From the NCBI RefSeq assembly GCF_013426735.1, contig NZ_AP023273.1:806001-870000 (forward strand): a stretch of 64,000 nt of DNA. Direction: 5' to 3'. Below the pieces are notes generated by a model. The model searched no databases and was not told where the DNA came from. It was given only the letters and a program-made list of their open reading frames with translations. Position 1 is the stretch's first letter. Each line of letters begins with the position of its first letter. Made by a program: the position numbers and the translations under genes. The DNA comes from Agrobacterium vitis. Lineage in GTDB: Bacteria; Pseudomonadota; Alphaproteobacteria; Rhizobiales; Rhizobiaceae. Below are positions 8,344-28,953 of this stretch, in pieces.

Positions 8344-9099
8344 TCAAGGCAGGGTACGGCAGTTTCCGATTGCCTCGGCAAGTCTCCGGACCACATCACT
8401 GTCGGTCTGCATCTGCCCTGCCTTGGCAAAACCAAACTCGACCAGAACCGGATCAGCCTCGATCGGCGCGCTGCAAGAGGCGTGAAACTCCCGCAGGCCT
8501 GCCTGCCAGAACGGCGCAATGCGATCAGGCCTCAACCCGCCACCGGGCATGATGACGATCCTGCCATCTGCCGCCTTTGAAAGCGATTTCAGTCGATCGA
8601 AACCGGAGACGACGGATTGCGCGCCACCGGACGTGAGAATTCGGCCAAACCCCAGCGCAATCGCCTGCTCCAGCGCTTCCTCAAAGTCCGGCACAAGATC
8701 GAAAGCCCGGTGCAATGTCATGGCGAGGCCAGACGCGACCGCCGTAAGTTTGCCAAGCACCTCAAGGTCCAGCCGTCCATCAGGCAGAGACGCCCCGAGA
8801 ACGACACCCGCCAGCCCTGCCTGCCGCGCAGCTTGGATATCCGCCCCCATGACGGCGACCTCATCGGTTGAGAACACGAAACTGCCTGCCCGTGGCCTGA
8901 TCATCGCAAAAACCGGGATCGGTGCCTGAGCGGCGCGCTGCATCAGACCTGACGTCGGCGTCAGCCCCCCGCAGTCAAGAGCGGCGCAAAGCTCAATCCG
9001 ATCGGCGCCACCGACAATCGCCGCCTCCAGCCCTGCAACGGAATCGACGCAGACTTCCAGCAAACCGCCATGGTTCTTTTCTGGTTCACGTTCTGCCAT
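8344..9099 (-). CDS. cutC: CutC-family TIM-barrel protein
   Basis: A 251-residue CutC homologue; family motifs include LEVCVDSV, GADRIELCAAL and GGLTPTSG in the first 50 residues and TSGGAQSV and PGGGLRPD in the second half. Members are named for copper homeostasis, but a direct copper role is disputed and the fold is that of a metabolic TIM barrel. Here it is the last gene of a seven-gene minus-strand unit with hexosaminidase, M81 peptidase and sugar-type carrier genes, and no copper genes are near. A sugar- or amino-sugar-related catalytic role is therefore more likely (inference). Confidence 0.85.
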   Translation of the reverse strand: MAEREPEKNHGGLLEVCVDSVAGLEAAIVGGADRIELCAALDCGGLTPTSGLMQRAAQAPIPVFAMIRPRAGSFVFSTDEVAVMGADIQAARQAGLAGVVLGASLPDGRLDLEVLGKLTAVASGLAMTLHRAFDLVPDFEEALEQAIALGFGRILTSGGAQSVVSGFDRLKSLSKAADGRIVIMPGGGLRPDRIAPFWQAGLREFHASCSAPIEADPVLVEFGFAKAGQMQTDSDVVRRLAEAIGNCRTLP

Positions 9100-9123
9100 G
9101 ATGGTTTCTTCTCTGTATTCCGG

Positions 9124-10332
9124 TCATTGAGCGCCCCTGAAGGACCGTGGCTTTTCCAGTATCAGCAACAGCAAAATACCGCAGAAGCCAGCCAGGGCAC
9201 CGAGCATTGCCGTGCCTGAATAATTGCTGACCCCGGTGCCAAATGCAAAGAGCAGCGAGTTCAATCCACCGCTCAGGAAGATATTCACCGCAATGAGCGA
9301 ACTACCAAGGCCCGCGCGGTCAGCGATCAGGTTTTGCAGATAGGTAATCGGCACGCTGATAATCGCCGCCGCCCCGAAACCCGCAATGCCGGAGAGCAAA
9401 TAGACATGTTCTGGCCGCGAGGCGAGGCCGAGGCCCAGCAGATAGACGCAATAGATCAGCGCACCGGCGACAAGCGTTGCCACGCTGGAGGTCTTGCGCT
9501 CCACCCAGCCCCAGAACAGAATGAAGACGATTTCCAGAAAGGCGACGATACCGACGATAATACCGACATCACCGGTCGTGCCATGTGCTGGCCCGGTCAT
9601 GACAAGGGGCAGCACGACGCCGTTCATTTGCAGCATGGCGGTGATCAGCGCGATGGCGCCAAGCCGCAACAATAATCCTGGCGAAGCGATTTTCGACAAG
9701 GATGAAAAAAACGCCAGACTTGCGGAGGGTTCGGCCCGTGCCTCCGCCTTCGGCAGCCAGACCAGAAACAGCACGAAGCAGGCGAGTCCGCCAAGGCTGG
9801 CAAACAGAAAGGCAGGCAGCATGCTTTTCTGACCTGCCAGAAAGAAGCCCACCAGACCCGGCACCAAGACCCAGGAGGCCGAGATAACGGCCCGCACCCC
9901 GGAATTGACTGCAATCAACTCACGCACCGGCATATCCTTGGATGCGGCCCGCACATTGGCAAATATCAGCGAATTCAGGGCGTTATAAACCGGCAGCAAT
10001 AAGAGCGCGGAGCCGACGAAGATGATCTGGTTCGGTTCGAGAAACACGACCCCATAACCGACCACGCCAAACAAGCTGACAATCACCATCGGCATACGAA
10101 AATGTCCAAGCCTGTCGGCCAATATCCCCACGGCGATGCTGGCGGCGACATTGACGCAAGAAGCGATGAAAATCAGCAGCGAGTAATGCGCATTGCTCAA
10201 TCCCAACTCGTGTATGCCGATGATCGACATATAGGGAGCCGTGGTCGCACCGGACAAGCCGAAGAAGAAAATCGCAATCGCGCTAATCCGGATACCCGGA
10301 TTGGCGGCGATGATGGAGAGAACTGGCGGCAT
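9124..10332 (-). CDS. MFS transporter, SetA-like sugar efflux/uptake type
   Basis: A 402-residue major-facilitator protein with about twelve hydrophobic segments, a GILADRLGHFRMP loop between helices 2 and 3, and a C-terminal half of similar design. The pattern resembles the sugar-efflux (SetA/Set) group. Start is uncertain: ATG at 10332 matches family N-termini, while an in-frame GTG at 10383 would add 17 residues; neither has a clear ribosome site. It is 108 bases downstream of the M81 gene and 24 bases before cutC, so it probably exports or imports a product of this pathway. Confidence 0.8.
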   Translation of the reverse strand: MPPVLSIIAANPGIRISAIAIFFFGLSGATTAPYMSIIGIHELGLSNAHYSLLIFIASCVNVAASIAVGILADRLGHFRMPMVIVSLFGVVGYGVVFLEPNQIIFVGSALLLLPVYNALNSLIFANVRAASKDMPVRELIAVNSGVRAVISASWVLVPGLVGFFLAGQKSMLPAFLFASLGGLACFVLFLVWLPKAEARAEPSASLAFFSSLSKIASPGLLLRLGAIALITAMLQMNGVVLPLVMTGPAHGTTGDVGIIVGIVAFLEIVFILFWGWVERKTSSVATLVAGALIYCVYLLGLGLASRPEHVYLLSGIAGFGAAAIISVPITYLQNLIADRAGLGSSLIAVNIFLSGGLNSLLFAFGTGVSNYSGTAMLGALAGFCGILLLLILEKPRSFRGAQ

Positions 10333-10437
10333 GAACGCGCTATCTTTGTAAAAACAAGCTGCCGCTGGCTTTACCGGCGGCACCTTTGAGGAATGAGACG
10401 CTTATCTCTCGTTTAAAGTTTGCCTGAGCGTCTGACG

Positions 10438-10455
10438 GGTTCAATCTGAACCTGA
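10438..10455 (-). repeat. Fragment of the intergenic repeat forming a gene 3' end
   Basis: Eighteen bases, GGTTCAATCTGAACCTGA, are the exact reverse complement of 60015-60032. On the minus strand they supply the last residues (S-G-S-D) and the TGA stop of the M81 peptidase gene. Confidence 0.6.
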
Positions 10456-11907
10456 ACGATTATCGCTACCCGTCCACCGTGCTGAGGTCACCGCTTGCGG
10501 CTGATAGTCGAAATCCTTGACGAAAGGGTAGATCGGTTGCTTGCGACGCTTGCTCGGCAAGGCCTCGATATCCTGGTTGATCACCCCATCGGTCAGCGCC
10601 ATCAGGTTCGGATTGGAAATTGGCTGAAGCTCGGGAGAAAGATAGCCAGACTTTACCACCAGCAACCGCACTGTCTTCGGATCAATGCCATGCCGGGTGA
10701 AATCGGCCAGATTGTGGTAGGGCCTGCGCTTACTGGCGAGAATAAGGGTAATACCACCGATTTTGACGATCGCCTGGCGCTCTGTCGCCGCACCCGGATC
10801 ATCCAGTTGAAGCACCTCGCAATCAACCTCAACCGACGGACTTGCCGGATCGAGTGAGCCACCGACCTTCAGCGCCAATTTCGCCCCCACGCCTGCGGAA
10901 AAACAGGCATCAACTGCGGGCTTGTCGGTAATCCCACCAATCACCGCCCCATCGAAATTGCGGGCGATCAAGGCCGCCAGCACGTCTGCACGGTCACCCA
11001 CTCCGCCGCCAGTGGGGTTGTCGCCAGAGTCAGCGAGAACAATCGGCCGGTTCTGAGTTGTTTCTGCGATGTCGAGCATATCATTCAGTGCCCCCGTCAT
11101 CGGGCCGAACCGGAAGGCGTTACGCGCCTCCCAGTAAGACTGTGCGATCTCTTCAGCCACCTTTTGCGCCTCGCCTCGATCCACGCCTGTGACGACGGCA
11201 CAGGCCGTGGCGCGGGGCTCGTCGGCCCAGACATAACCAACCATCAGATTGGCATCCCATATGCCGGGACGCTTGTCATGCTGCGGCAATTGAAGGTAGA
11301 GGCTCTTGGCGGGTTCATCTTCGGTAGAGGTTCGTTCCCCTGGAAGAAGGACAGGCACAGGCGCCCAGACGACACCGGGTTTCTCGCCGGACCGCAGCGC
11401 CTTCATCAGCATCTCCCAGGCCCGGACCATGGTTTCGCGCACATCGATATGCGGCGCGGTCCGATAACCAGCGAAAATATCCAGTTGATCGATGATTTTC
11501 TGGGTAACATTGCCATGCAGATCGTAACTTGCCGCAACCGTGCAATCCAGTCCAACCACAGCGCGGGCAGCCGAAATCCAGTCACCCTCGGCATCGTCCA
11601 TGCCCTCGACATTCATGGCGCCATGCATGGCGAGATAGAGCCCGTCCAGCGGCAGAGTGGCTTGTAACCGATCCAGGAACTCGGCCTTGAAACTTTCATA
11701 GGTCTGACGCGAAACCGGGCCGCCCGGGACGGCACGGGCATGCAGCAAGGGAAAAGCGTTGACCCCATCCGTGCCAAGAAAGCTGAAATAATCTGCACCT
11801 AAGAGATCGTCACCGCGCAGCACGCGAAAATCCTCGGTCTGCATCAAAACCGGCGATGACGTACTGCATTCCGTGTGAATGCCACCAACGGCAATTCGAA
11901 ATTCCAT
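10441..11907 (-). CDS. M81-family metallopeptidase (MlrC-like), copy 1
   Basis: A 488-residue member of peptidase family M81, named after microcystin-degrading MlrC. The zinc ligands are visible: D129 and H131 in SYDLHGN and H153 in RTAPHID, with the His-to-His spacing of 22 seen in MlrC. The DNPTGGG element (in ADSGDNPTGGGVGD) is also present. The N-terminus GGIHTECSTSSP is typical, and there is no signal peptide, so it acts in the cytoplasm. It lies 11 bases after the GH20 gene. Substrates of most M81 proteins are unknown; an amide bond in an imported conjugate is the best guess. A second, diverged copy lies at 16563. Confidence 0.88.
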   Translation of the reverse strand: MEFRIAVGGIHTECSTSSPVLMQTEDFRVLRGDDLLGADYFSFLGTDGVNAFPLLHARAVPGGPVSRQTYESFKAEFLDRLQATLPLDGLYLAMHGAMNVEGMDDAEGDWISAARAVVGLDCTVAASYDLHGNVTQKIIDQLDIFAGYRTAPHIDVRETMVRAWEMLMKALRSGEKPGVVWAPVPVLLPGERTSTEDEPAKSLYLQLPQHDKRPGIWDANLMVGYVWADEPRATACAVVTGVDRGEAQKVAEEIAQSYWEARNAFRFGPMTGALNDMLDIAETTQNRPIVLADSGDNPTGGGVGDRADVLAALIARNFDGAVIGGITDKPAVDACFSAGVGAKLALKVGGSLDPASPSVEVDCEVLQLDDPGAATERQAIVKIGGITLILASKRRPYHNLADFTRHGIDPKTVRLLVVKSGYLSPELQPISNPNLMALTDGVINQDIEALPSKRRKQPIYPFVKDFDYQPQAVTSARWTGSDNRSGSD

Positions 11908-11918
11908 GTCCGATTTCC

Positions 11919-13838
11919 TTAAAAACGTGGCATCAGCGGTGCGAGAGCTGCAAAGCGCAGCCAGTTCTTCTGATCCCTAGGTGCCCAGGCAGCCTCGGCA
12001 ACAGCCGGTAGGCGCGGAAAGACCAGGTGGTTGAAGTAATCCCGGTTCAGAAAATGCTCCGACCAGATACAGGCCTGCACACCCCGCATCCTCGGCTTTA
12101 ATTCCTCAGGAAATTCCGCGACGGCTTCATAGGTATAGGTATGGTGCGGCGGCACGGTGCCGGCCCAGCTGGCGCCCGGCTCCTGCCACGCCTCGTCCTG
12201 CACCATGTCGAGATAATAGGCCTGACCCGGCGTCATCACCACGTCATAGCCCTGCCGCGCCAGATCCAGTCCTACCTCCGGCTTCTGCCAGGCCATCAGC
12301 AGCGTTCCCTGCGGATCGACACCGCCGCCGTGGGAGACTTCGTCCCAACCAGCCAGTTTCTTGCCGCGGTCTTTCAACATCTGCTGAATGCGCTTCATGA
12401 AATGGCTTTGCAGCCCGAATGTGCCGTCAATGCCCTCCTGCTCCATCAGCTTTTTTGCCAATGGCGAGGCCATCCAGGTATTGGCCGCAACCTCATCCCC
12501 ACCGACATGCACGAGATCGGATGGAAAGAGCTTGGCCATCTCATCCAAGACCTTGCCGAGAAACACATAGGTCTGCTCAATGGCCGGGTTGAGCGCGTTA
12601 TTCGGATAGCCTTGGACGGAGCGGTAGCTGTCAGGCGCTTCCTGGCCATCGACCAGTTCAGGCAAGGCCGTCAAGATCGCGGTGCTATGACCGGGAATAT
12701 CGATCTCAGGCACGATTTCGACATGCAGCAAGGCGGCATGGGCGACGATGTGGCCAACATCCTCCTGGGTGTAAAAACCACCGACCGGCTCCGCGCCATT
12801 GCCAAGCTGCGGCAACATCGGCTCATCCGGGCCACGCAGCACACCAACTGTCGTCAGTTGCGGATAAGCCTTTATTTCCAACCGCCAAGCCTCGTCATCG
12901 GTCAGATGCCAGTGGAAAATATTCAGCTTCATCCAGGCCATGATATCGATCAGCCGCAGCACGTCCTGCGTCGGATAAAATTGCCGGGACACATCCAGAT
13001 GGCAGCCGCGCCAGCCATAACGCGGCGCATCCTTGATCTGGCCGGAGACCGGAAACCGGAACTGAACGGGGTCCTGTCTTGCTCCATGCAGCATTTGCGC
13101 CAATGCTGTCAGTCCATATTGCCGTCCCGCCTCATCGCTAAAGGAGAGCGTAATCTCCTCAGCAAAATCGAGCCGATAGGCGGATACGCCGATAGCAGGA
13201 TCATGGGCGAGGCGCAAAGCCTTGCCCTGATCGACCGGGGCCAGCGAAAAAGGCACATGGCCAACTGCAAATAGCCGCCGGTAAAGCGCATTAACCCCCT
13301 CGATCGCACGCAAACCAGCAAGATCCGTAGTCTTTTCGGGATAGATCGCTACGGGAAAACCATCGCCTGCGGCAAGGTGCGCCTCGGCAGGCCAGGGCAG
13401 AAGAAAAAACGGCTCAGTGACCTCACCTTTGGGAAGCAGGATAGGAGCAGGCTCGCTCACCCGGCCTTGCAACATCAGGTCATCGACGGAGACGGTGACA
13501 TGCCGCCCATCCGCAAGGGTCAGATAAGCGGATTTTGCACCATCAGTGCGGTGCCGGGCGGGCCGCCAAAGGCCCTGAACCGTAAACCGCCAGCACGCTC
13601 CTGGCGCCAAAACCAGGCCTTCCGGTGGCGCAAACTGGTGAAAATTGGCGTTGCGCCGCAGGAAAACCGCGTTGTCGCAGACCGGACCATCTTTCACCCG
13701 CGTCAAAGCGGTATAGGCAAGTTTGAAACCGCTGACAGGCTCGGACGACAAATTGTAGAGGGTGAAGACGAAACCACCGCCGTCATCGCCCTCGACAGGA
13801 TACCAAGCATTGTCCAGACGAAAAGCTGCTTCAGCCAT
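11919..13838 (-). CDS. GH20 beta-N-acetylhexosaminidase, cytoplasmic
   Basis: A 639-residue family-20 glycosidase that removes terminal beta-linked GlcNAc/GalNAc. The N-terminal region (to about 230) holds a bacterial pre-domain. The GH20 barrel follows with GWRGCHLDVSRQFYP, MKLNIFHWHLTDDEAWR and the catalytic Asp-Glu pair in VHVGGDEV (about residue 446). The aromatic -1 subsite is seen in IWSEH. No signal peptide is present, so it should act on imported oligosaccharides such as chitobiose. AGGGGAA precedes the ATG. Its place in an operon with RpiR and next to an ABC importer plus NagA/NagB/kinase genes supports amino-sugar catabolism. Confidence 0.93.
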   Translation of the reverse strand: MAEAAFRLDNAWYPVEGDDGGGFVFTLYNLSSEPVSGFKLAYTALTRVKDGPVCDNAVFLRRNANFHQFAPPEGLVLAPGACWRFTVQGLWRPARHRTDGAKSAYLTLADGRHVTVSVDDLMLQGRVSEPAPILLPKGEVTEPFFLLPWPAEAHLAAGDGFPVAIYPEKTTDLAGLRAIEGVNALYRRLFAVGHVPFSLAPVDQGKALRLAHDPAIGVSAYRLDFAEEITLSFSDEAGRQYGLTALAQMLHGARQDPVQFRFPVSGQIKDAPRYGWRGCHLDVSRQFYPTQDVLRLIDIMAWMKLNIFHWHLTDDEAWRLEIKAYPQLTTVGVLRGPDEPMLPQLGNGAEPVGGFYTQEDVGHIVAHAALLHVEIVPEIDIPGHSTAILTALPELVDGQEAPDSYRSVQGYPNNALNPAIEQTYVFLGKVLDEMAKLFPSDLVHVGGDEVAANTWMASPLAKKLMEQEGIDGTFGLQSHFMKRIQQMLKDRGKKLAGWDEVSHGGGVDPQGTLLMAWQKPEVGLDLARQGYDVVMTPGQAYYLDMVQDEAWQEPGASWAGTVPPHHTYTYEAVAEFPEELKPRMRGVQACIWSEHFLNRDYFNHLVFPRLPAVAEAAWAPRDQKNWLRFAALAPLMPRF

Positions 13839-13871: not shown

Positions 13872-14648
13872 TCAATAATGCTCGGACTGCGAAAATGTCC
13901 GGGCGAGTTCGCTTTGGCCTGCTGTCAACCCGCAATCGACGGGAAGGCAAACGCCGGTAATGGCTGCGGCCTGATCGCCAGCCAGAAAATACACTGCATT
14001 AGCAACATCCTGCGCCGTGGCGATCCGTTGCAGCGCATACCAGCGCTTGGCCTCTTCAAACACGGCAGGATTGGCGGCGGCGCGCGCTTCCCAGGCCTGG
14101 GTCCGCACCGTGCCGGGTGCCACAGCATTGGCGCGAATGCCGAACTTGCCATATTCCACAGCGATCAATCGGGTTAGATGGATCAGGCCAGCCTTCGCCG
14201 CGCTATAGGCTGGATGGCCGAACACGGCCATGCCATTGACCGACGCAATATTGATGACCGAGCCTTGCGATTGCTTCAACTGACCTTCCAACGCCCTGAA
14301 GGTCAGAAATGCAGCTTCCAGGTTGAGCGCATTATCCTGACGCCAGATCGCCGCATCGGTATCGTGCAGACTGACGGCCCTTGCAGCCCCGGCATTGTTG
14401 ACAAGAGTTTTGGTGACGCCAATCTCCTGCACCGCAAATACCAGCGTTTTGATACTGACCTCATCGGTAACATCACAGACCAGCGGTACGAATATATTTG
14501 ACTCGCCGAGGCTTACCGCAGCCGCATTCACCGCGGTCTCATCGATATCAGCCAGCACCACCACATCGTGGCTTGCGGCCAGACGGCTAGCAATCGCCCG
14601 CCCGATGTCACCAGCGGCACCTGTTACCACAGCCACGGATTTCGCCAT
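13872..14648 (-). CDS. SDR-family oxidoreductase
   Basis: A 258-residue classical short-chain dehydrogenase. The NAD(P) site TGAAGDIGRAIA lies at the start, NNAG follows the fourth strand, and the catalytic Ser-Tyr-Lys set is visible in INIASVNG and PAYSAAKAGL. The ATG at 14648 overlaps the rpiR stop and puts the Rossmann glycine motif at its usual distance from the N-terminus; an earlier in-frame start would run into the upstream gene. Asp after the second strand (VLADID) favours NAD+ over NADP+. The substrate is unknown; oxidation of a sugar or hydroxy-acid product of this island is likely. Confidence 0.85.
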   Translation of the reverse strand: MAKSVAVVTGAAGDIGRAIASRLAASHDVVVLADIDETAVNAAAVSLGESNIFVPLVCDVTDEVSIKTLVFAVQEIGVTKTLVNNAGAARAVSLHDTDAAIWRQDNALNLEAAFLTFRALEGQLKQSQGSVINIASVNGMAVFGHPAYSAAKAGLIHLTRLIAVEYGKFGIRANAVAPGTVRTQAWEARAAANPAVFEEAKRWYALQRIATAQDVANAVYFLAGDQAAAITGVCLPVDCGLTAGQSELARTFSQSEHY

Positions 14649-14649
14649 C

Positions 14650-15513
14650 CTAGTCTCCGAGAATCTGACGGTCGTCGCCATCGCGATGTTCGACCAATTG
14701 TTGTTTGATATGGCGCAGCGTCACCATGGAAAGCTTGCGATTGCGATAGGCAACCAGGCTGGCGATGACATCGACCATCGCCAGATAGGCAAAACGGGTC
14801 GAAGTCGGACGAAAGATATTGTCGCCCTCTGGCAGATCGATTCCAACAACCAGTTCAGCCGTCTTGGCGACAGCGCTGTCACTCTGGGTCAGGGCGATCG
14901 TGGTAATGCCATTGTCGCGGGCCAGCTCGAAACAGCGTGCCAGTTCCAGATTGCGGCCAGAGAAGGATGATCCGACAATGATATCATTGCTGCGTGCCGC
15001 CGCCGTCAACATCAGCTGCATATGGTGATCGTTACAGGCCGTGACCCGCGACCCCAGCCGAAACAGCCGGTTTTGCAATTCCGAAGCAATCATCGAGGAA
15101 TTGCCGCCCGAGCCGAACGCGTAGATCATCTCAGCCCGCGAAATCCGGTCCGCAACCTTTTCGATCATAACTGCGTCGAGAGAGCGATGCATCATGAACA
15201 GCGCGTTCTGCGCCTTGGTGATCACATCCTCAGCAACATCCGGCGGCTCAGTGCTTTTCGCTTCCGGGTTCAGGTAACGCACGCCGACATAGGCGGTCTT
15301 GGCCAGATTGACCTTGAAATCCGAAAAGCTCTGGCACCCAAGCCTGCGGCAAAAACGGGTCACCGTCGGCGGCGACACTTGCGCCCTTTCCGCCAGCTCG
15401 ATGATCGATGCGCCGACGGCAAAATCCAGCTCGCTCAGGAGAATGTCGGCAATCCGCTGTTCGGAAGGCGAAAATTGCGCGCGATCTTCCTGTATGGTGG
15501 CAAAGATATCCAT
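14650..15513 (-). CDS. MurR/RpiR-family regulator
   Basis: A 287-residue regulator with an N-terminal HTH_6 domain (FSPSEQRIADILL ... SPPTVTRFCRRLGC) and a C-terminal SIS domain (about 125-260; YAFGSGGNS, GSSFSGRN) that normally senses a phosphosugar. Family members control amino-sugar and sugar-acid operons. It sits inside the unit it probably regulates: 19 bases after ridA and overlapping the SDR gene. Candidate operators are the repeated ATTATTTTC/TTTATTTTC motifs in the two divergent promoter regions of the island (15933-16014 and 24638-24721). Effector unknown. Confidence 0.88.
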   Translation of the reverse strand: MDIFATIQEDRAQFSPSEQRIADILLSELDFAVGASIIELAERAQVSPPTVTRFCRRLGCQSFSDFKVNLAKTAYVGVRYLNPEAKSTEPPDVAEDVITKAQNALFMMHRSLDAVMIEKVADRISRAEMIYAFGSGGNSSMIASELQNRLFRLGSRVTACNDHHMQLMLTAAARSNDIIVGSSFSGRNLELARCFELARDNGITTIALTQSDSAVAKTAELVVGIDLPEGDNIFRPTSTRFAYLAMVDVIASLVAYRNRKLSMVTLRHIKQQLVEHRDGDDRQILGD

Positions 15514-15532: not shown

Positions 15533-15919
15533 TTATTTGGTCGCCTTATAGGCTATGCAGTCGATCTCGACCTTGCAATCGACCATCATCGAGGCCTGCA
15601 CGCAGGCGCGGGCTGGCGGATGTTCGCCGAAATAGCCCTGATAGATCTTGTTGAAGCTCCAGAAGTCACGGGGATCATCAATCCAGACACCGCAGCGCAC
15701 GACATGCTCCACGCCGTAGCCAGCCTCATGCAAAATGGCGATCAGGTTGCCAATCGCCTTATGGCTCTGCTCGACAATGCCACCCTGGATGATCTCGCCG
15801 TCTTCCATCGCCACCTGGCCGGAGACATGCAGCCAGCCATCGGCCTCAACTGCTCTTGCGAACGGCAGTTTCTGCCCGCCAGCACCTGCTTTTTCCGCGC
15901 CATACCGCTTGATCGTCAT
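15533..15919 (-). CDS. RidA-family enamine/imine deaminase
   Basis: A 128-residue YjgF/YER057c/UK114 protein. The ATG at 15919 was chosen because GAGGT lies just upstream. Family features are seen in LPFARAVEADGWLHVSGQVA, in the conserved Arg at PPARACVQ and in the C-terminal VEIDCIAY. RidA proteins hydrolyse reactive 2-aminoacrylate and related enamines released by PLP dehydratases. First gene of the minus-strand unit and divergent from a unit that encodes a D-serine-dehydratase-like enzyme, which gives it a clear potential partner (inference). Confidence 0.87.
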   Translation of the reverse strand: MTIKRYGAEKAGAGGQKLPFARAVEADGWLHVSGQVAMEDGEIIQGGIVEQSHKAIGNLIAILHEAGYGVEHVVRCGVWIDDPRDFWSFNKIYQGYFGEHPPARACVQASMMVDCKVEIDCIAYKATK

Positions 15920-15932
15920 CTCGACCTCATGC

Positions 15933-16014
15933 AAATTATTTTCGTGATCAATTGACAATTCATCATAGAAAACCGATTTTGCCTAGAGATTTTCATAGAA
16001 GATGAAAATAATTT
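15933..16014. promoter_or_regulatory. Divergent promoter region with candidate RpiR operators
   Basis: Between ridA and the NTF2-like gene, AAATTATTTTC occurs at 15933-15943 and again inverted at 16004-16014. The second copy overlaps a perfect dyad ATTTTCAT-N5-ATGAAAAT (15989-16009). A nearly identical 11-mer occurs twice in the ABC-importer promoter. Assignment to the RpiR protein is inference. Confidence 0.5.
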
Positions 16015-16031
16015 AGACAAAGGCGGCTGAG

Positions 16032-16523: not shown

Positions 16524-16562
16524 GAAATATTCGTTCCATCAACCGTGATTGGAGGCCACTCC

Positions 16563-20298: not shown

Positions 20299-20353
20299 CG
20301 CGCTGCGTCTCCATACCGACCGGCGACCAAACGGCGACCGGCGAAATTCCAAA

Positions 20354-21681: not shown

Positions 21682-22542
21682 CTACTTGACTGCTCCCGCC
21701 GTCAGGCCACTGACCAGATAGCGTTGCAGGAAGAAGATCATGATCATCGCCGGCGCAATACCGACGAAGCTTGCGGCCATCAACTCGTTCCAGATCACTT
21801 CCTGACGGCCGAAATAGGCAAACAGGCCAATCGGCAGTGGCATGTATTCCGTCTTCGAGTTGAAGGTCAGTGCGAAGATGAAATGCTGCGCATAGGCGGT
21901 AATGAAGGTGGTGATGCCGACGACGGCAATCCCCGGCATGGCAAGCGGCAGAACCACGCGCCGGAACGTATAGAAATAGCTTGCCCCGTCCACATACGCC
22001 GCCTCCTCAAGCTCCCGTGGAATCCGCATCATATAGGTTCTCAGCAACCAGATGGCGGTCGGGATCAGGAAGGCGATCAGCGGCACGATCAGCGCGAAAT
22101 AGGTGTTCAGCATTCCCGAAATCCGCATCAGCCGAAAGATCGGAATGAGCAGGACCGCGCCTGAAAACATGTTGACGGCGAGGAACGTCCCCAGCAACAC
22201 ACCCCTGCCACGGAATTCGAAACGGGCAAAGGCATACGCTGCCGGGACGACGAGCAGCAGAACCACCACCGTTGCCGTGATCGAGATAAAGAACGAATTG
22301 AAGATATAGCGGCCAAAGCCCGGAACGTGGTCCCACATGGTTCGGTAGGCTTCGAATGAACCATTTTCCGGCCAAAACCGATAAGGTGACGAAAACAGCT
22401 GGCTGAGCGGCTTCAACGACACCAGGAACCCTTCCACGAAAGGCGCCAGCACGAAAGTGAGAAACACCGCGACACCGCAATAGATGCCGATGATTTCATA
22501 CCATTTGTAGCGATTGATCATCGCCTGCCTGTTGGTGCTCAT
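21682..22542 (-). CDS. Carbohydrate ABC permease (MalG type)
   Basis: A 286-residue inner-membrane permease with about six transmembrane segments and the EAA loop seen as EEAAYVDGASYFYTFRRVVLP. The last residues VSGLTAGAVK are typical of MalG-like subunits. Its start overlaps the stop of the MalF-type gene by four bases, so the two permeases are translationally coupled. It pairs with that protein to form the membrane channel of the importer. Confidence 0.9.
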   Translation of the reverse strand: MSTNRQAMINRYKWYEIIGIYCGVAVFLTFVLAPFVEGFLVSLKPLSQLFSSPYRFWPENGSFEAYRTMWDHVPGFGRYIFNSFFISITATVVVLLLVVPAAYAFARFEFRGRGVLLGTFLAVNMFSGAVLLIPIFRLMRISGMLNTYFALIVPLIAFLIPTAIWLLRTYMMRIPRELEEAAYVDGASYFYTFRRVVLPLAMPGIAVVGITTFITAYAQHFIFALTFNSKTEYMPLPIGLFAYFGRQEVIWNELMAASFVGIAPAMIMIFFLQRYLVSGLTAGAVK

Positions 22543-23429
22543 CGGGAATGCTCCTGCGAAAGACGGCTGGTGACGCGGAAGTAGAAATAGCTGAAGATCG
22601 ACAGGAAGATGCAGATCAGCACGGCGCGCGCCGCCCCTTCACCGTATTTGTACGACCCAATTGCCGTCTTATAGGTATCGATGATCATCGTCGTCGTGCC
22701 GCCGCTTGGGCCACCTCGGGTCAATATCCAGATGATATCGAAGGAATTGAAGGTCGAGATTAGCGAAATCATTGACATGGTGATCATCGCTGGCATCAGC
22801 AGCGGCAGGGTGATGCGGCGGAACCGGTAGAACCGCCCGGCACCGTCCGTCCAAGCCGCCTCATGCAGATCCTGCGGGATCGCCTGCATAGCTGCCAGCA
22901 GATAAAGCGTCACCATCGGCACGCCGATCCATACATCGGTGAAGATCGTAGCCCAGAACGCCGTCGATCCATAAGCAAGGAAGGCGACAGGCCCATCGAC
23001 CAGACCGAACCGCTGCAACATGCCGGAAATCATCCCGAACTGGCCGTTATACATCCAGCCCCACATGAAGATGCCGATAGCCATCGGCACGATCCAGGGT
23101 GGCATGGTCAGGATGCGGAACAAGGTTCGCCCCGGCACGGCAGTGTTCAGAAGCGTCGCGCCGAACGTGCCGATAATCATCTTGAACAGCACGGAGAAGA
23201 ACGTCCACACGAAGGTGCGGATAATGACATCCGCGAAGGTGGCGTTGAAAATCTTGTTGTAATTATCCCAGCCGACCCAATTCGTCACCCGCTTCAGCGA
23301 CGCATCGGTGAAGGACAGGATGAAAGTATCGACCAGCGGATAAGCAACGATGATGGCGATATAGATGGTTGCCGGCAACAGCAGGCACCAGGCGAAGAAA
23401 ACGGCTCTGCGTTTCGCCTCCATGACCAT
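22539..23429 (-). CDS. Carbohydrate ABC permease (MalF type)
   Basis: A 296-residue permease with six hydrophobic segments and an EAA loop (HEAAWTDGAGRFYRFRRITLP). The first helix FFAWCLLLPATIYIAIIVAYP and the following PLVDTFILSFTD are characteristic of MalF/UgpA-like subunits. It begins 3 bases after the oxidoreductase stop and overlaps the next permease gene, which makes a tight operon. Confidence 0.9.
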   Translation of the reverse strand: MVMEAKRRAVFFAWCLLLPATIYIAIIVAYPLVDTFILSFTDASLKRVTNWVGWDNYNKIFNATFADVIIRTFVWTFFSVLFKMIIGTFGATLLNTAVPGRTLFRILTMPPWIVPMAIGIFMWGWMYNGQFGMISGMLQRFGLVDGPVAFLAYGSTAFWATIFTDVWIGVPMVTLYLLAAMQAIPQDLHEAAWTDGAGRFYRFRRITLPLLMPAMITMSMISLISTFNSFDIIWILTRGGPSGGTTTMIIDTYKTAIGSYKYGEGAARAVLICIFLSIFSYFYFRVTSRLSQEHSR

Positions 23430-23432
23430 CCC

Positions 23433-24614
23433 CTATGCCGACTTTGCAGGGGCGGCGGACGCCTCGCCATGCAGGCAGGCATCGTAACGCGCCCAGACAG
23501 GCGCGAGGTCCACCACTTTACGCTCAGCTCGGGCCTGATCCAGCGCCAGGGCCAAAATGCCCGCCTCAATGGCGTCGAGAGCCGAAACCGGTTGCTTCGC
23601 TCCGGTTTCAATGAAGGCCAGCACGTCGGCTGCCATTTGTTCGTCGGCACCGTAATGCTGCGACTTCTCGGACGGCGCACTATAGGTTTTGGCAATGACC
23701 TTGCCATTGTTGCGGGCATTGTGGACATCGAGGAATCCACGCACGAAATCACCCTCAGCCATGCCCTTCGAGCCGATCACGCAGAAACGGCGAAACTGAT
23801 CGGGCACATTGAGATTGGTGTGAAATGTCATCGCCACGCCATTCTCATATTCGATGATCGCGGTCTGATAATCGATAATGTCGGCATCGCTATCAAAGAC
23901 CTTGTCGGAACCCAACCAACCGCTTGGCTTGCGGTGATAGACTTCCATGTCGTTGACGCCATCCTGCTCCGGCGCGTTTTCCGGAATGAAGCTCTTGCGA
24001 CCACCAAAACTGGCGACGAAACGGGGCCGTGCGCCCACCACACCATTGTAAAGATCAAGGTCGTGGCAGCATTTCTCCAGCATGAAGCCGCCGGTATAGC
24101 GCCCGTAACGACGCCAATCGCGCATGAAGAACGCGCCATGATAAGGCTCGATATGCTCCGAAGCCTCAATGGAGACGACATTGCCAAGCAGGCCATCCGC
24201 CTGCGCCTGACGCAAATCGCGGTAGAGCGGCGAATAGCGAAGAACAAGACCAACCAACAACCGGTCATGACCATAGGTATGCAGAAGCGAGGCGAGTTCG
24301 AGGCTTTCCTCGATGGAAATCACGATCGGCTTTTCGGTAAAGACTGTCAGTCCGGCTTCAAGTCCTAACCGGATATGCTGGATATGCAGGTGATTGGGCG
24401 AACCGATCATCAGCAGATCGAAGCCGCCCCCGGTAATCAGCTGTTCTGGTGTTTCATATGCCTTGCCTGCCGATACACCCGCCTCGACCAATCCAGGCAG
24501 GCCTGCCGGATCAGGATCGACATAGCCGACAATCTCGAAAGACGGATCGATCTCACTAAGCACTCGACCGAGATAACCAAGCCGGAAACCAAGCCCGATA
24601 ATGGCGACTTTCAT
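23433..24614 (-). CDS. Gfo/Idh/MocA-family oxidoreductase
   Basis: A 393-residue NAD(P)-dependent dehydrogenase. The Rossmann glycine motif (MKVAIIGLGFRLGYLG) begins at residue 1 with the ATG at 24614; an upstream start would add 26 residues that do not fit the family. The EKP element (TEKPI) lies near residue 100 and a second alpha/beta domain follows. Members oxidise or epimerise sugars and inositols. As first gene of the importer operon it probably modifies the imported sugar or a released moiety; the exact substrate is unknown. GGGGAAAG precedes the start. Confidence 0.87.
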   Translation of the reverse strand: MKVAIIGLGFRLGYLGRVLSEIDPSFEIVGYVDPDPAGLPGLVEAGVSAGKAYETPEQLITGGGFDLLMIGSPNHLHIQHIRLGLEAGLTVFTEKPIVISIEESLELASLLHTYGHDRLLVGLVLRYSPLYRDLRQAQADGLLGNVVSIEASEHIEPYHGAFFMRDWRRYGRYTGGFMLEKCCHDLDLYNGVVGARPRFVASFGGRKSFIPENAPEQDGVNDMEVYHRKPSGWLGSDKVFDSDADIIDYQTAIIEYENGVAMTFHTNLNVPDQFRRFCVIGSKGMAEGDFVRGFLDVHNARNNGKVIAKTYSAPSEKSQHYGADEQMAADVLAFIETGAKQPVSALDAIEAGILALALDQARAERKVVDLAPVWARYDACLHGEASAAPAKSA

Positions 24615-24637
24615 GCTGGAACTTTCCCCGTTCACGT

Positions 24638-24721
24638 AATTTATTTTCTTGAGACTGCGAATTTTTGGCGGTTTCGTCAATAGAGAAAGCAATTCTCCGC
24701 AAGGTCGTGAAATTTATTTTC
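24638..24721. promoter_or_regulatory. Candidate RpiR operators upstream of importer operon
   Basis: AATTTATTTTC occurs at 24638-24648 and 24711-24721. The second copy is the core of a perfect dyad, GTGAAA-N5-TTTCAC (24707-24723). The start-to-start distance is 73 bases, against 71 for the sister motifs at 15933 and 16004. The assignment to the RpiR protein is inference. Confidence 0.5.
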
Positions 24722-24844
24722 ACAATCAGCGAAACCACCTCAAGGCCTTCACAAGTGCATCACCAATTCCGCACACATCCGGGAACATTGAGTTCGACGA
24801 GCTATGCACGATTGTTCCATTTATTTATTCTTGTTAATGAATAA

Positions 24845-24969: not shown

Positions 24970-24993
24970 TGCCAAATTGGTATTGCCTTGGTA
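24970..24993 (+). promoter_or_regulatory. Candidate GntR (NagR-like) operator, site 2
   Basis: TTGGTA occurs at 24977-24982 and 24988-24993 with a five-base spacer, and an inverted TGCCAA at 24970-24975 forms a short dyad with the first. It lies 53-76 bases before the GntR start codon, a suitable place for autoregulation. Confidence 0.5.
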
Positions 24994-25045
24994 CTGTAAT
25001 CAAAAAATAACCATCAGCATTCGGCTAGGATACGGGGAACGTGAC

Positions 25046-25798
25046 ATGCAGACGGATGTGCTTGCTTTTGCGAGCCTGCAATCCAGCCGGGGCGGCCCGC
25101 TTTATATCAAGTTAAAGACGCTGATCGAAGATGCCATCGAAGCTGGACAGCTTAAGCATGGCGACGCCCTGCCTGCGGAGCGCGACATTGCCGAGGCCGC
25201 AGGTATCAGCCGCGTCACCGTGCGCAAGGCAATAGACGACCTCGTTGCTGAAGGCCTTTTGGTTCGGCGCCGGGGTGCTGGAACCTTTGTCGTCAAGCCA
25301 GTCAAGCGCATGCAGCAACCGCTGACACGGCTGACATCCTTTACCGAGGATATGGCCCGGCGCGGCATGGTCAGCGGTTCACGTTGGCTGGAGCGCGGCT
25401 TGTTTTTGCCAACGCCGGAAGAAACCATGGCGCTTGGGCTTTCCGGCACCGCGCGAGTGGCACGGCTGGTGCGGCTGCGCACCGCCAGCGACATGCCGAT
25501 TGCGTTGGAACGTACCAATCTTCCAGATGATCTGCTGCCAGATCCCTCTCGCGTCGAGAACTCTCTCTATGCCGCACTTGGCAGTGTCGGGATTAGACCC
25601 GTGCGCGCCAATCAGCGCATTTCGGCGGTCATATTAACGGATGAAGATACCAAATTGCTCGGCATGCCGCCGGGTTCTGCCGCGCTTTCGGTGCAGCGGA
25701 TCGCCTATCTCGACACGGGCCGGGTGATGGAAGTGTCGCGAGCGCTATATCGCAGCGACGCCTATGACCTGGTTGCAGAATTGACCATCGGTTCCTGA
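25046..25798 (+). CDS. GntR-family regulator with UTRA domain (NagR-like)
   Basis: A 250-residue regulator. A winged helix-turn-helix occupies about residues 14-80 (GDALPAERDIAEAAGISRVTVRK in pieces, then GLLVRRRGAGTFV), and a UTRA ligand domain follows (about 100-240). The ATG at 25046 with GGGGA upstream is preferred to a TTG 69 bases earlier. UTRA proteins of this kind repress nag operons and respond to GlcN-6-P or GlcNAc-6-P. It heads the SIS-nagA-kinase operon and faces the importer operon, so it probably controls both. Confidence 0.88.
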   Translation: MQTDVLAFASLQSSRGGPLYIKLKTLIEDAIEAGQLKHGDALPAERDIAEAAGISRVTVRKAIDDLVAEGLLVRRRGAGTFVVKPVKRMQQPLTRLTSFTEDMARRGMVSGSRWLERGLFLPTPEETMALGLSGTARVARLVRLRTASDMPIALERTNLPDDLLPDPSRVENSLYAALGSVGIRPVRANQRISAVILTDEDTKLLGMPPGSAALSVQRIAYLDTGRVMEVSRALYRSDAYDLVAELTIGS

Positions 25799-25826
25799 TC
25801 GGAAGCCGCAGGATAAGGAAAATACG

Positions 25827-26849
25827 ATGACGACGACTATGCGCCAGGAAATAAACGAGATTCCGCAAGCGGTCAGTAGACTGCTACGCGATAGCCGGGA
25901 GAGTTTGGAACAAGCGGGTGCAGCACTCCGCAAGCGCGATCCTGCGGTGCTGGTCACTATTGCGCGTGGTTCTTCAGACCACGCCGCCCATTTCCTGAAA
26001 TATGCTGTCGAACTGGAGCTCGGGATCGTCGTTGCCTCGCTCGGCCCGTCTCTCGCCTCGATTTATCAAGCGCCGCTGAAACTGGACCGGGCTGCGGCAC
26101 TTGCGATCTCGCAATCCGGGGCCAGCCCGGACCTCGTAGCGCTCGCCAAGTCTGCCGTAGCCGGTGGGGCAACGACAATTTCGCTGCTCAATACTATTTC
26201 TTCGCCGCTGGCCGCAGCCTCTGATATCGCTATCGACATTCAGGCCGGACCGGAAATTGCGGTTGCGGCGACAAAATCCTTCGTCAATTCCATTGTTGCT
26301 GGCCTGTCCTTGATCAGTGCCTGGAGCGACAACGCTCGCCTGGCAGCCGCAGTCGAAGCCCTTCCCACGCATCTTGAAAAAGCGCTCGCCCTGGATTGGA
26401 GTAGCCTGGTCGAGGTGTTGAAAGACGCCGATTCGCTCTACATGCTCGGGCGCGGCCCAACGTTGGCCATTGCCTGCGAAGCGGCACTGAAATGCAAGGA
26501 AACCTCTGAACTGCATGCGGAGGCCTATTCTTCGGCTGAAGTGTTGCATGGTCCGGTCTCCCTGGTGTCTGCAAATTTCCCGATCATCGCCTTTGCCGCC
26601 CGTGACAAGGCGGAAGCTTCTATCGCCGCGACGGCCAATGGACTGGCCGCCAAGAATGCCTCTGTTTTCCTGACATCGTCTTTGGCAAAGGAGTCCAACC
26701 ATTTGCCCTTCATCGAAACCGGCCACCCGCTGACCGATGCACTGGCATTGATTGTACCGTATTATGGCATGGTGGAATCACTATCGCGCGCCCGTGGCCT
26801 TGATCCGGACAAGCCAGCCGCTCTGAAGAAAGTAACGGAAACCCGATGA
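25827..26849 (+). CDS. SIS-domain glucosamine-6-P deaminase (NagB-II type)
   Basis: A 340-residue protein with two SIS domains (about 35-165 and 195-320), homologous to the isomerase half of GlmS but without a glutaminase domain. Typical elements are ARGSSDHAAHFLKYA, SQSGASPDLV and the late AEAYSSAEVLHGPVSLV. Such stand-alone proteins act as alternative GlcN-6-P deaminases that yield fructose-6-P and ammonia. Its overlap (ATGA) with nagA and the kinase gene downstream support that role. A related aldose-ketose isomerase (AgaS) cannot be excluded. Confidence 0.85.
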   Translation: MTTTMRQEINEIPQAVSRLLRDSRESLEQAGAALRKRDPAVLVTIARGSSDHAAHFLKYAVELELGIVVASLGPSLASIYQAPLKLDRAAALAISQSGASPDLVALAKSAVAGGATTISLLNTISSPLAAASDIAIDIQAGPEIAVAATKSFVNSIVAGLSLISAWSDNARLAAAVEALPTHLEKALALDWSSLVEVLKDADSLYMLGRGPTLAIACEAALKCKETSELHAEAYSSAEVLHGPVSLVSANFPIIAFAARDKAEASIAATANGLAAKNASVFLTSSLAKESNHLPFIETGHPLTDALALIVPYYGMVESLSRARGLDPDKPAALKKVTETR

Positions 26850-28048
26850 ACTCGTCTCTTGCGGCTCCCTCCTCATTCGCTGTGACAGGCGGCCGGATTT
26901 TTGACGGCACGCGTTTCCATGACGATCAGGCCCTGATTGTCGATCAGGGGCGAATCGCTGATATCGTCTCCAACAATGCCGTGCCTGCTAGCCTTGCCAG
27001 AATCGAGGTAGGGTCGGCTCTGGTCGTGCCTGGCTTTATCGATCTGCAAGTCAATGGCGGCGGCGGTGTGTTGCTGAACAACCAGCCGGATCTTGATGGT
27101 ATCCGGACGATTTGCGCCGCCCATGCAAGGTTTGGCACCACAGCGCTATTACCGACATTGATTACTGACCATCCTGCCCTGCGCGATCAGGTTTTGAGCC
27201 TTGGCAGCCAAGCCCTTGCCGAGCGGATACCAGGCTATCTGGGGCTTCACCTGGAAGGTCCACATCTATCGCTGGCGCGCAAGGGTACCCATGATCCCGC
27301 CCTGATCAGGCCCATGAACGACGATGATCTGGCAAAGCTTATTGCCGCCGCCGGCACATTTGGCACTGCACTGATCACCATAGCGCCGGAAAGCGTTACC
27401 CCGCAGCAGGTGAAAACCCTGCGAGCAGCGGGTTATCACATCAGCCTGGGCCACACGGATGCGAGTTGCGCGCAGATTGGCGCCTATGTCGAGGCCGGCG
27501 CGACGCTCGTCACTCATTTATTCAATGCCATGAGCCAGATGGGCAATCGCGAACCGGGCCTTGTCGGAGCAGCCCTTGCTTCAGACACACTGTTCTGCGG
27601 GATTATCGCTGACGGTTTCCATGTCGATCCGGTCTCGATGGGCATTGCCCTTCGCGCCAAACGCGGGTCTGGCCGGATTTTCCTGGTCACCGACGCCATG
27701 TCGAGCATCGGCACCGATGAAACCGGCTTCATGCTGAATGGTCGCCCGGTCTACCGCCAGGGCGGACGGTTGACTTTAGCCGATGGAACCCTGGCAGGTG
27801 CCGATATCGATATGCTGTCCTGCATTCGGTTTGTCCATGAAAAGCTCCAAGCATCGCTTGAGGAGGCGTTGAACATGGCGTCGCTTTATCCAGCCCATGC
27901 GATTGGATGCGAGACGAAAGGTCAGCTTGCGCCTGGCAAGGACGCCGACTTCCTGTTGCTCACCCCGCAACTCGATCTGGTTTCCACCTGGATCGCTGGA
28001 ACATGCGTTCATAGCACAGCAACACATTCCGAGGCCCGGCGCGCATGA
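26846..28048 (+). CDS. nagA: N-acetylglucosamine-6-phosphate deacetylase
   Basis: A 400-residue amidohydrolase that removes acetate from GlcNAc-6-P. The metal ligands seen in the family are present: Glu in HLEGPHLS, His in SLGHTDAS and His in VTHLFNAMS; the catalytic Asp lies in LVTDAMSS. The amidohydrolase signature GFIDLQVNGGGG is near residue 60. It overlaps the upstream deaminase gene by four bases and the downstream kinase gene by four bases, so the three steps from GlcNAc to fructose-6-P are encoded as one block. Confidence 0.93.
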   Translation: MNSSLAAPSSFAVTGGRIFDGTRFHDDQALIVDQGRIADIVSNNAVPASLARIEVGSALVVPGFIDLQVNGGGGVLLNNQPDLDGIRTICAAHARFGTTALLPTLITDHPALRDQVLSLGSQALAERIPGYLGLHLEGPHLSLARKGTHDPALIRPMNDDDLAKLIAAAGTFGTALITIAPESVTPQQVKTLRAAGYHISLGHTDASCAQIGAYVEAGATLVTHLFNAMSQMGNREPGLVGAALASDTLFCGIIADGFHVDPVSMGIALRAKRGSGRIFLVTDAMSSIGTDETGFMLNGRPVYRQGGRLTLADGTLAGADIDMLSCIRFVHEKLQASLEEALNMASLYPAHAIGCETKGQLAPGKDADFLLLTPQLDLVSTWIAGTCVHSTATHSEARRA

Positions 28049-28953
28049 TCGTCTGTTTCGATATTGGCGGAACCGCCATCAAGGGCGCAATTGCCTATTC
28101 GCCTGAGGATATTCGTCCCTTTCCACGCCAGCCAACGCCGGGACAGGATTTCGATGCATTTGTCAGCGTCATCAGGTCCATCATTGCCGAGGCGGGAGAG
28201 ATACCAAGCTGCGTGGCAATTTCCATCTGCGGCATTATAGATGTGGATACCAGCCGCGCTGTTGTCGCCAATATACCCTGCATCCATGGCCGTTTGCTGC
28301 AACACGATCTGGAAGAGGCCTTGGGCCTGCCTGTGCTGATTGCCAATGATGCCGATTGTTTCGCAATCGCTGAGGCCGGATTGGGCGCGGGACGCGGCCA
28401 CCGCGTGGTGTTCGGCGTCATTCTCGGCACCGGCGTCGGCGGCGGACTGGTAGTCGATGGCAAACTGATCAATAGCGACGGCGGCTTTGCCGGAGAATGG
28501 GGCCATGGACCAATTGCCGCAACCGAGGTCGGCGAACCGCCCGTCACCATCCCTCGGCTTCCGTGCGGCTGCGGTCAGAAAGGTTGTATCGACACAATCT
28601 GCAGCGCGCGCGGCATGGAAAAGCTCCATACGCACCTGACCGGCGAAAACCGAACGAGTGAGGATATCGTCAAGGATTGGGAAACCGGCGAACCAAAGGC
28701 AAGCCAAACCATCGCGGCATTTGTCGAATTACTTTCCAGTCCGTTGGCTCTGGTCGTCAATACGACGGGGGCGAGCATACTGCCGGTCGGCGGCGGCCTG
28801 TCCAATGCGACAAAGCTCGTTGACGCCATCGATTTAGCCGTCAGAACCAAGATCTTGCGACGGTTCAACCATCCTATTGTGGTTCCAGCGCAATGCCGAC
28901 TGGAGCCGGGCCTGATCGGTGCAGCCTTGCTCGGGCTTGCAAGGCCAAATTAA
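28045..28953 (+). CDS. nagK: ROK-family N-acetylhexosamine kinase
   Basis: A 302-residue ROK sugar kinase. The phosphate loop is DIGGTAIKGA at residues 5-14, the catalytic Asp is in IANDADCFA, GEWGHGP carries a zinc His and the ROK zinc cluster is CGCGQKGC. Presence of the zinc cluster and the gene context (overlapping nagA) indicate a GlcNAc kinase that makes GlcNAc-6-P in the cytoplasm. This fits an ABC importer, which delivers an unphosphorylated sugar, in contrast to PTS-based nag systems. Confidence 0.88.
   Translation: MIVCFDIGGTAIKGAIAYSPEDIRPFPRQPTPGQDFDAFVSVIRSIIAEAGEIPSCVAISICGIIDVDTSRAVVANIPCIHGRLLQHDLEEALGLPVLIANDADCFAIAEAGLGAGRGHRVVFGVILGTGVGGGLVVDGKLINSDGGFAGEWGHGPIAATEVGEPPVTIPRLPCGCGQKGCIDTICSARGMEKLHTHLTGENRTSEDIVKDWETGEPKASQTIAAFVELLSSPLALVVNTTGASILPVGGGLSNATKLVDAIDLAVRTKILRRFNHPIVVPAQCRLEPGLIGAALLGLARPN

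Follow-up and report, generated by a model that had tools for sequence, protein, structure and literature searches.

In the ong cluster of Pseudoalteromonas prydzensis, the closest described system to the locus considered here, the GH20 enzyme OngA, the deacetylase OngB, the fold-III pyridoxal 5'-phosphate (PLP) deaminase OngC and the kinase KdgK are encoded together, and N-acetyl-D-glucosaminate (GlcNAc1A) is turned into 2-keto-3-deoxygluconate (KDG) and then KDG-6-phosphate, according to passages of PMC9537276. The same passages report that the RidA protein OngD is needed for growth in a role stated to be unknown, that the RpiR-type repressor OngR controls two ong operons, and that OngC also deaminates D-serine and D-threonine. 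They describe the use of oxidised chitin through ong for Gammaproteobacteria and one Betaproteobacterium. For the M81 family, microcystin cleavage is the only tested role named in the passages of PMC12474180. The stretch analysed here, the window, is 64,000 nucleotides of Agrobacterium vitis, on contig C2 of a 5.88 Mb genome in 7 contigs. It carries an island in which two M81 genes (M81a and M81b), a fold-III PLP enzyme and a RidA are joined to amino-sugar genes.

The four back-to-back units that an initial annotation had delimited at 8344..28953 are present there. Unit 1 runs on the minus strand in the order ridA-rpiR-SDR-GH20-M81a-MFS-cutC. Unit 2, on the plus strand, consists of a gene labelled 'NTF2', M81b and the PLP enzyme. 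Unit 3, on the minus strand, has the order Gfo-permease-permease-solute-binding protein-ATPase and encodes an ATP-binding cassette (ABC) importer. Unit 4 (25046-28953, plus strand) comprises GntR, NagB-II-like, NagA and ROK kinase genes.

The island resembles ong (PMC9537276; PMC12017989) in its GH20, a RidA of the same kind, an RpiR-type regulator and a fold-III PLP enzyme, and in some distant relatives the M81b set adjoins a KDG-kinase-like gene, a further likeness. It differs in that M81b stands for OngB and a PLP protein of the D-threonine-aldolase/dehydratase type for OngC. Instead of an SSS symporter and TonB receptors it has an ABC importer, its GH20 shows no visible signal peptide, the genome has no match to a lytic polysaccharide monooxygenase (LPMO), kdgK is absent from the island, and the host belongs to Alphaproteobacteria. 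Because the island has neither an OngB (D-aminoacylase-like deacetylase) gene, other Amidohydro_3 proteins being encoded elsewhere in the genome, nor a PLP enzyme of the OngC subfamily, it is not classed as ong. Neither ong paper mentions M81, MlrC, Rhizob- or Agrobacterium in its main text. In open-licence literature on DUF1485, the MlrC C-terminus or the M81 family, no amino-sugar link appeared in titles and abstract starts, and 'M81 family metallopeptidase' was not found among the matching papers listed. Nothing useful was found there for S. meliloti SMc028xx, CutC with hexosaminidase, cog3964, or RpiR with rhizobial N-acetylglucosamine (GlcNAc) use.

The best reading of the island is that M81b, the PLP enzyme and RidA would turn an N-acyl hexosaminic acid into KDG beside the normal GlcNAc route. 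There is roughly an even chance that the island encodes amino-sugar catabolism in two arms, one of which, the arm to KDG, consists of these three proteins. The importer would take up GlcNAc-containing oligosaccharides, some of them ending in an N-acyl hexosaminic acid such as GlcNAc1A, and the cytoplasmic GH20 would split them. GlcNAc would be processed by the ROK kinase, NagA and NagB-II. At the acid end, M81b would strip the acyl group in the place of OngB, the PLP enzyme would remove water and ammonia from the hexosaminate, and RidA would aid hydrolysis of the enamine/imine to KDG. A KDG kinase and a 2-keto-3-deoxy-6-phosphogluconate (KDPG) aldolase encoded elsewhere in the genome would consume KDG, and RpiR would repress units 1-3 through paired operators. 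All reactions, the substrate, the identity of the repressor and its effector are proposed here from sequence.

Paired operators and conservation of the gene set

A palindrome, TGAAAATnATTTTCA, was first noticed in the intergenic DNA that precedes the 'NTF2' gene in relatives. A position weight matrix was built from 61 distinct ridA/'NTF2' or rpiR/'NTF2' intergenic sequences of at least 95 bases, many of them from close relatives and with that of the window excluded. Its top four matches in the 64 kb are predicted operator sites at 15930..15944 before ridA (score 21.7), at 16003..16017 before the 'NTF2' gene (21.8), at 24635..24649 before the Gfo/importer operon (12.4) and at 24708..24722 (19.4), and the next best match scores 9.2. 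Each pair has a spacing of exactly 73 bp. When the window was resampled 100 times with a first-order model, the top score was 18.6, and matches of at least 12.4 numbered 0.98 on average and 3 at most. Exact matches to TGMAAWTWATTTTC occur at two places in the whole genome, both within the island. With one mismatch there are 8 matches genome-wide, two of which are one place on both strands, versus 3 for a reversed control pattern.

The spacing is also kept in relatives. In the ridA/'NTF2' region, or rpiR/'NTF2' where ridA is absent, all 97 loci have a pair, with a spacing of 73 bp in 93 and of 72 bp in 4; this set of loci fed the matrix and overlaps itself. The Gfo/GntR region was outside the training of the matrix, and all 19 loci have a site there with a partner (at least 6.3 bits) at 72 or 73 bp. 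Two loci fetched later, L214 and L215, have both pairs, each 73 bp apart, and Aureimonas (L140) has no rpiR and no operator site of at least 13 bits. Units 1-3 look like one regulon, and the RpiR of the cluster would be the binder of the paired operators and their probable repressor. The HexR operator consensus differs from the palindrome found here. Because they have a common paired operator and are conserved together, units 1-3 are read as one system, which agrees with the proposal of the initial annotation. A single operator-like site (21.9) at G000:C1:983974 (L210:7975), with no 73-bp partner, lies before a peptidase M19 gene (Pfam); apparent peptide-importer genes follow that gene, and kdgK-like and glucuronate isomerase genes adjoin.

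The conserved neighbourhood of both M81 genes, the PLP enzyme, GH20 and the importer, for which the initial annotation had called, was found. Among 80 named loci collected by M81a homology, with a presence threshold of 45% identity, the full ABC-PLP-M81b-NTF2-RidA-RpiR-SDR-GH20-M81a-MFS-cutC set occurs in 28, and all but cutC in 16. The co-occurrence of these genes is more than expected by chance. The nearest named relatives of M81a are those of Agrobacterium (Allorhizobium) vitis CG78 (92%) and NCPPB 3554 (91%).

Four loci (L075, L079, L084 and L144) end at contig ends, leaving 76 usable for counts of M81b and PLP. Both genes are present in 54, M81b only in 8, PLP only in 1 and neither in 13, which are 12 Agrobacterium-type loci and Aureimonas. 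All 12 Agrobacterium-type loci lack M81b, PLP and ridA simultaneously. A PLP homolog elsewhere was searched for in 19 genomes. It was found in 9 of the 9 Agrobacterium-type genomes searched out of the 12 (65-66%) and in 8 of 8 genomes with M81b but no local PLP gene (49-71%). In the three Agrobacterium-type cases fetched (L192, L199 and L200), ridA-PLP-M81b lies elsewhere with a predicted operator pair 72 bp apart in front. Stand-alone M81b-PLP-RidA sets with their own RpiR are found in three genomes of the same genus (L055, L057 and L059), the first two with site pairs 72 bp apart and L059 with one site. The set of L055 lies with a peptide-type solute-binding protein gene (SBP_bac_5), verified in that locus, and L057 and L059 have the same layout.

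Other loci show different combinations. L214 (Sinorhizobium sp. B11) has GH20, M81b and PLP and no M81a. L215, a Rhizobium leguminosarum plasmid, has MFS-SDR-RpiR-RidA, M81b-PLP and importer-Gfo and likewise no M81a; the only GH20 in 31 kb is a distant one (40%), ~7 kb off beside other ABC genes. In L216 (Sinorhizobium meliloti USDA1157 pSymB) the island has no PLP gene between M81b and the ABC ATPase (tblastn), and two Martelella loci (L142 and L149) have M81b and no SDR. GH20 lies within the flank in 79 of the 80 named loci, L107 having GH20 fragments, and the distance between M81a and GH20 is ~9 kb in G040 (L054). For the most part M81a is found with GH20 and M81b accompanies PLP and RidA, but both associations have exceptions. 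The Nag unit, with its own GntR regulator, is the loosest part of the island. It lies outside most fetched flanks and was seen mainly in genomes of the same genus and in L107, and in L215 another gene replaces it beside Gfo.

Enzymes of the proposed arm and the link to KDG kinase

The fold-III PLP enzyme (18046..19146, plus strand; Ala_racemase_N and D-ser_dehydrat) is nearest by sequence to the structures of D-threonine aldolases and dehydratases. Its PNHTC aligns with PNHACA of D-threo-3-hydroxyaspartate dehydratase (3wqc), whereas two D-threonine aldolases have PSHVDP. The enzyme thus has the H-x-C pair of the dehydratase type, not the H-x-D of the aldolases, and carries the mark of the D-beta-hydroxyamino-acid dehydratase subgroup. 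The pair is invariant (15/15), and its residues are presumably metal ligands. Dehydration of a D-beta-hydroxyamino acid gives an enamine/imine, and for this reason a RidA beside the PLP enzyme fits. The profile search found no other PF14031 match in the genome. The BhcC 3-hydroxyaspartate aldolase was rejected as an identity (195.3 bits against the NF045642 cut-off of 690); three conserved four-gene loci (L167, L168 and L171) resemble bhc clusters in their gene order. A D-glucosaminate dehydratase known from Agrobacterium radiobacter in older work, absent from the papers that the literature search listed, was also dropped. At L160 (G050:C14:48700-68699), a 49% PLP homolog lies directly before a DgaE-family SelA-like lyase gene (166 bits, cut-off 385), and a ROK-type regulator and a BPD_transp_2 permease are also present.

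Probable ong clusters were available for comparison. A search with the PLP alignment across 398 genomes of the phylum gave matches in 142, and 20 neighbourhoods were fetched. Six of them (L247-L251 and L256) carry RpiR, a PLP gene at the place of OngC, a gene of amidohydrolase size, RidA, a 491-504-aa gene and GH20; a KdgK-like gene was recognised in four of these clusters. The kinase of L247 scores 391 against the KdgK cut-off of 400, and its aldolase passes the eda cut-off. Synteny, and not their naming, makes them probable ong clusters. The RidA of the window (15533..15919, minus strand; Pfam Ribonuc_L-PSP) is 53-57% identical to their RidA proteins; the values are 40% for the RidA of L198 and 30-35% for four outgroup RidAs. 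It shares the IKRYG..GGQ.LPF start with the ong-type RidAs and can be placed with OngD, in a tree most of whose forks are weakly supported. The RpiR/HexR-type regulator (14650..15513, minus strand; HTH_6 and SIS; best NCBIfam match HexR, 185.7 bits, cut-off 296) is 34-37% identical to the proteins at the OngR position. The GH20 beta-N-acetylhexosaminidase (11919..13838, minus strand; PF00728, 374 bits; GGDE motif), in which a signal peptide was not seen on inspection by eye, is 29-34% identical to the GH20 proteins of these clusters.

M81b, a predicted metallo-amidase (16545..18044, plus strand), and M81a, a predicted metallo-amidase or peptidase (10441..11907, minus strand, adjoining GH20), both have DUF1485 and MlrC_C with the zinc-site Glu/His/Asp/His/His, and they are 29% identical to each other. 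The initial annotation had called both MlrC-like. This holds for M81b, which scores 382.5 bits with the NCBIfam MlrC model NF041767 and matches PDB 7ylq with E=3e-107, and M81a is distant from MlrC (145.7 bits). Both are below the cut-off of 999 bits and so are not MlrC microcystinase proper. M81b aligns with MlrC microcystinase (7ylq) over the full length and keeps the five active-centre residues, in a setting of amino-sugar genes. These residues, given as Glu56, His150, Asp184, His186 and His208 in passages of PMC12474180, were mapped onto the 7ylq chain by shifting the numbering by 17. Glu, Asp and two of the His residues are invariant in M81a (29/29; E13/D129/H131/H153) and in M81b (24/24), and the fifth (His95 in M81a, His111 in M81b) is also among the invariant columns. 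For the alignments 30 loci were chosen and those with no match or an in-read stop dropped, which kept 29 for NTF2, 28 for M81a, 26 for M81b and 20 for PLP; 3 M81b and 6 PLP rows with overlong starts were removed before the final alignments. Three tandem M81 genes were seen at G632:C1:3555278-3559788.

In some distant relatives the set stands beside a KDG-kinase-like gene. L259 and L260, of one alphaproteobacterial genus, hold together such a gene, RpiR, RidA, DctP/DctM-like tripartite ATP-independent periplasmic (TRAP) transporter genes, M81b (55-56%), PLP (52-53%) and 'NTF2' (57-58%). L270 and L271, of another genus and equal in every score listed, hold a KDG-kinase-like gene, RpiR, RidA, an SBP_bac_5-like gene, M81b (53%) and PLP (58%). 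The best NCBIfam match of the kinases scanned (L259, L270 and L271) is KdgK, with 274-300 bits versus 82-91 for the next, all below the cut-off of 400. Across 98 loci picked by M81 or PLP homology, with thresholds of our own, a KdgK-like gene is present at 4 of the 10 loci with M81b, PLP, RidA and RpiR versus 6 of the 88 others (Fisher p = 0.009, on loci that are not independent). The 6 others are four ong-type clusters and L257 and L286, which have an OngC- or PLP-type gene and RidA. In this comparison no KdgK-like gene was found at loci where M81b is the sole detected member of the set. The genome of the window has a KdgK-like gene (247.7 bits, cut-off 400) beside uxaC / glucuronate isomerase, outside the island, and two KDPG-aldolase-family matches.

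Remaining genes and similar loci

Profile scans against Pfam and NCBIfam back every gene label of the initial annotation except 'NTF2'. The small conserved protein with this label (16032..16523, plus strand) is 69-95% identical to 29 orthologs. It had no match in the Pfam scan and nothing usable in the PDB profile search (best E = 0.12), so that the label lacks support from either source. An open reading frame (ORF) at 16117-16518 is off-frame inside this gene. The rest of unit 1, on the minus strand, consists of the short-chain dehydrogenase/reductase (SDR; 13872..14648; NF005474, 418 bits, above the cut-off of 361), the major facilitator superfamily (MFS) transporter (9124..10383; PF07690) and the CutC family protein (8344..9099; PF03932). 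Unit 3, also on the minus strand, is made of the Gfo/Idh/MocA oxidoreductase (23433..24614; Pfam/NCBIfam), two ABC permeases (22539..23429 and 21682..22542; Pfam), a sugar-type solute-binding protein (20402..21625; SBP_bac_8/1) and an ATPase of the MalK/UgpC type (19165..20352; Pfam/NCBIfam). Likely starts lie inside the listed ORFs for ridA (15919, listed 15958), SDR (14648), PLP (18046, one base past the end of the M81b gene), Gfo (24614) and GntR (25046).

On the plus strand, unit 4 encodes a GntR/UTRA regulator (25046..25798; Pfam), a NagB-II-like glucosamine-6-phosphate deaminase (25827..26849; SIS; NF046059, 282.6 bits, cut-off 430), the N-acetylglucosamine-6-phosphate deacetylase NagA (26846..28048; TIGR00221, 290.3 bits, above the cut-off of 225.65) and a ROK kinase with N-acetylglucosamine kinase as the best match (28045..28953; NF009835, 203 bits, cut-off 380). 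It has the kinase, NagA, NagB-II and GntR of the Nag route, which needs no M81, PLP enzyme or RidA. The repeat TTGGTATTGCCTTGGTACTG before gntR (24977-24996) is a possible GntR operator of the Nag unit, and TTGGTATTG is kept in several relatives.

Two further loci combine some of these genes in other ways. L198 (Martelella, G067:C51:147000-166999) resembles the island in a CUT1-like importer, SDR, PLP, RidA, CutC and MFS, but differs in a PRK09237-type amidohydrolase (399 bits, cut-off 371) at the place of M81 and a LacI regulator; no M81 and no GH20 were found in its 20 kb. Its order is LacI-MFS-PLP-ABC ATPase-SDR-SBP-permeases-RidA-PRK09237-type amidohydrolase-CutC. L301 (G384:C29:137500-154499) has OngB-like (60%) and OngIT-like (66%) genes, a PLP gene of the window type (37%) and two RidA genes.

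Alternative substrates and implications

Several observations weigh against a route to KDG. The island has no kdgK, and the co-location with KDG kinase rests on four loci, which come from two genera and are alike within each pair. With no more than 26-29% identity to the protein at the OngC position, the PLP enzyme belongs to a different subfamily, and the ROK kinase and NagB-II scores are below the curated cut-offs. PLP homologs of ~50% occur without M81 or KdgK at L161, alongside an amino-acid-type importer, and at L166, together with M20 peptidases and an amidase. In the search of the class, 136 of 385 genomes had an M81b match, many without PLP and several beside SBP_bac_5-like genes. Aureimonas L140 keeps GH20, M81a and the importer while no PLP match was found in the search of its genome, and therefore M81a must have another purpose. 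The initial annotation would have been undermined by an M81/PLP unit scattered independently of the Nag and importer units, and here the result is mixed: M81b-PLP-RidA occurs apart at L055, L057, L059, L192, L199 and L200 yet keeps sites of the same kind, and no operator site reaches 10 bits in the distant M81b-PLP sets (L259, L260, L268, L270, L271 and L299). Profile searches of the genome found no AA10 LPMO and no GH18 match, so that other organisms would have to supply the oxidised oligomers, unless the acid is made inside the cell.

Because of the PLP homologs without KdgK, M81b without PLP and the distant sets without the operator, a non-sugar N-acyl-D-hydroxyamino acid is a clear chemical rival. 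M81b-PLP-RidA would then degrade N-acyl or peptide-bound D-beta-hydroxyamino acids of the D-serine or D-threonine type and share the operator through a common substrate source. The peptide-type importer at the stand-alone sets, the importer and peptidases at L161 and L166, the activity of OngC on D-serine and D-threonine noted in passages of PMC9537276, and the MlrC-like nature of M81b all suit it. It is nevertheless unlikely, though to be taken seriously, as KDG-kinase-like genes lie beside the set in four genomes, a sugar-type (CUT1) importer adjoins it in the R. leguminosarum plasmid without M81a or an adjacent GH20, and the RidA is of the OngD type. If the acid is made inside, SDR or Gfo would oxidise GlcNAc at C1 and M81b-PLP-RidA would lead on to KDG, a phosphate-free oxidative route parallel to Nag. 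The SDR in the ridA operon and the Gfo heading the importer operon both lie behind the shared predicted operator, the R. leguminosarum plasmid keeps both with M81b-PLP, and the genome has neither an LPMO nor a chitinase match; against this stand the absence of family evidence for either oxidoreductase acting on C1 of GlcNAc and the two Martelella loci with M81b but no SDR, and this version appears improbable.

The initial annotation had suggested a single substrate in which an amino sugar is linked to a peptide-like or D-hydroxyamino-acid part, such as a wall fragment, glycopeptide or amino-sugar antibiotic. The combination of an amino sugar and a D-hydroxyamino acid pointed in the right direction, since in chemical terms N-acyl hexosaminic acids belong to the N-acyl-D-beta-hydroxyamino acids. 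The peptide part is not supported: functionally, the closest parallel is the breakdown of sugar acids to KDG (PMC9537276), and a KDG-kinase-like gene occurs in the 4 of 10 loci above. Two M81 genes, one MlrC-like, do lie together with GH20 and Nag genes, but M81a-GH20 and M81b-PLP-RidA are evolutionarily separable (L140, L214 and L215), the KDG-kinase link points elsewhere, and the Pfam and NCBIfam scans found no muropeptide-specific family among the island genes. M81 enzymes acting here as peptidases on such a joint substrate are thus very improbable. GlcNAc-Asn or N-glycan fragments, which CutC and GH20 would presumably fit, were dropped as a substrate, as they leave a D-specific PLP enzyme unexplained.

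The preferred reading, conversion of an N-acyl hexosaminic acid to KDG, has a wider form, which is held tentatively and at somewhat below even probability. In this form, M81 proteins would serve as amidases of sugar acids and, together with a PLP enzyme of the dehydratase type, RidA and RpiR, make up a second route from N-acyl hexosaminic acid to KDG that arose by independent assembly in Alphaproteobacteria. This route would be tied to the GlcNAc route by a looping 73-bp operator pair, and M81a would act on GH20 products as a further new activity. If this is true, M81, a widespread metalloenzyme family, would gain a general job in carbon metabolism. The use of oxidised chitin, through a type of pathway originally reported from marine bacteria that employ other enzymes, would extend to rhizobia and agrobacteria, and chitin oxidation in soil by other organisms would be linked to plant-associated bacteria.

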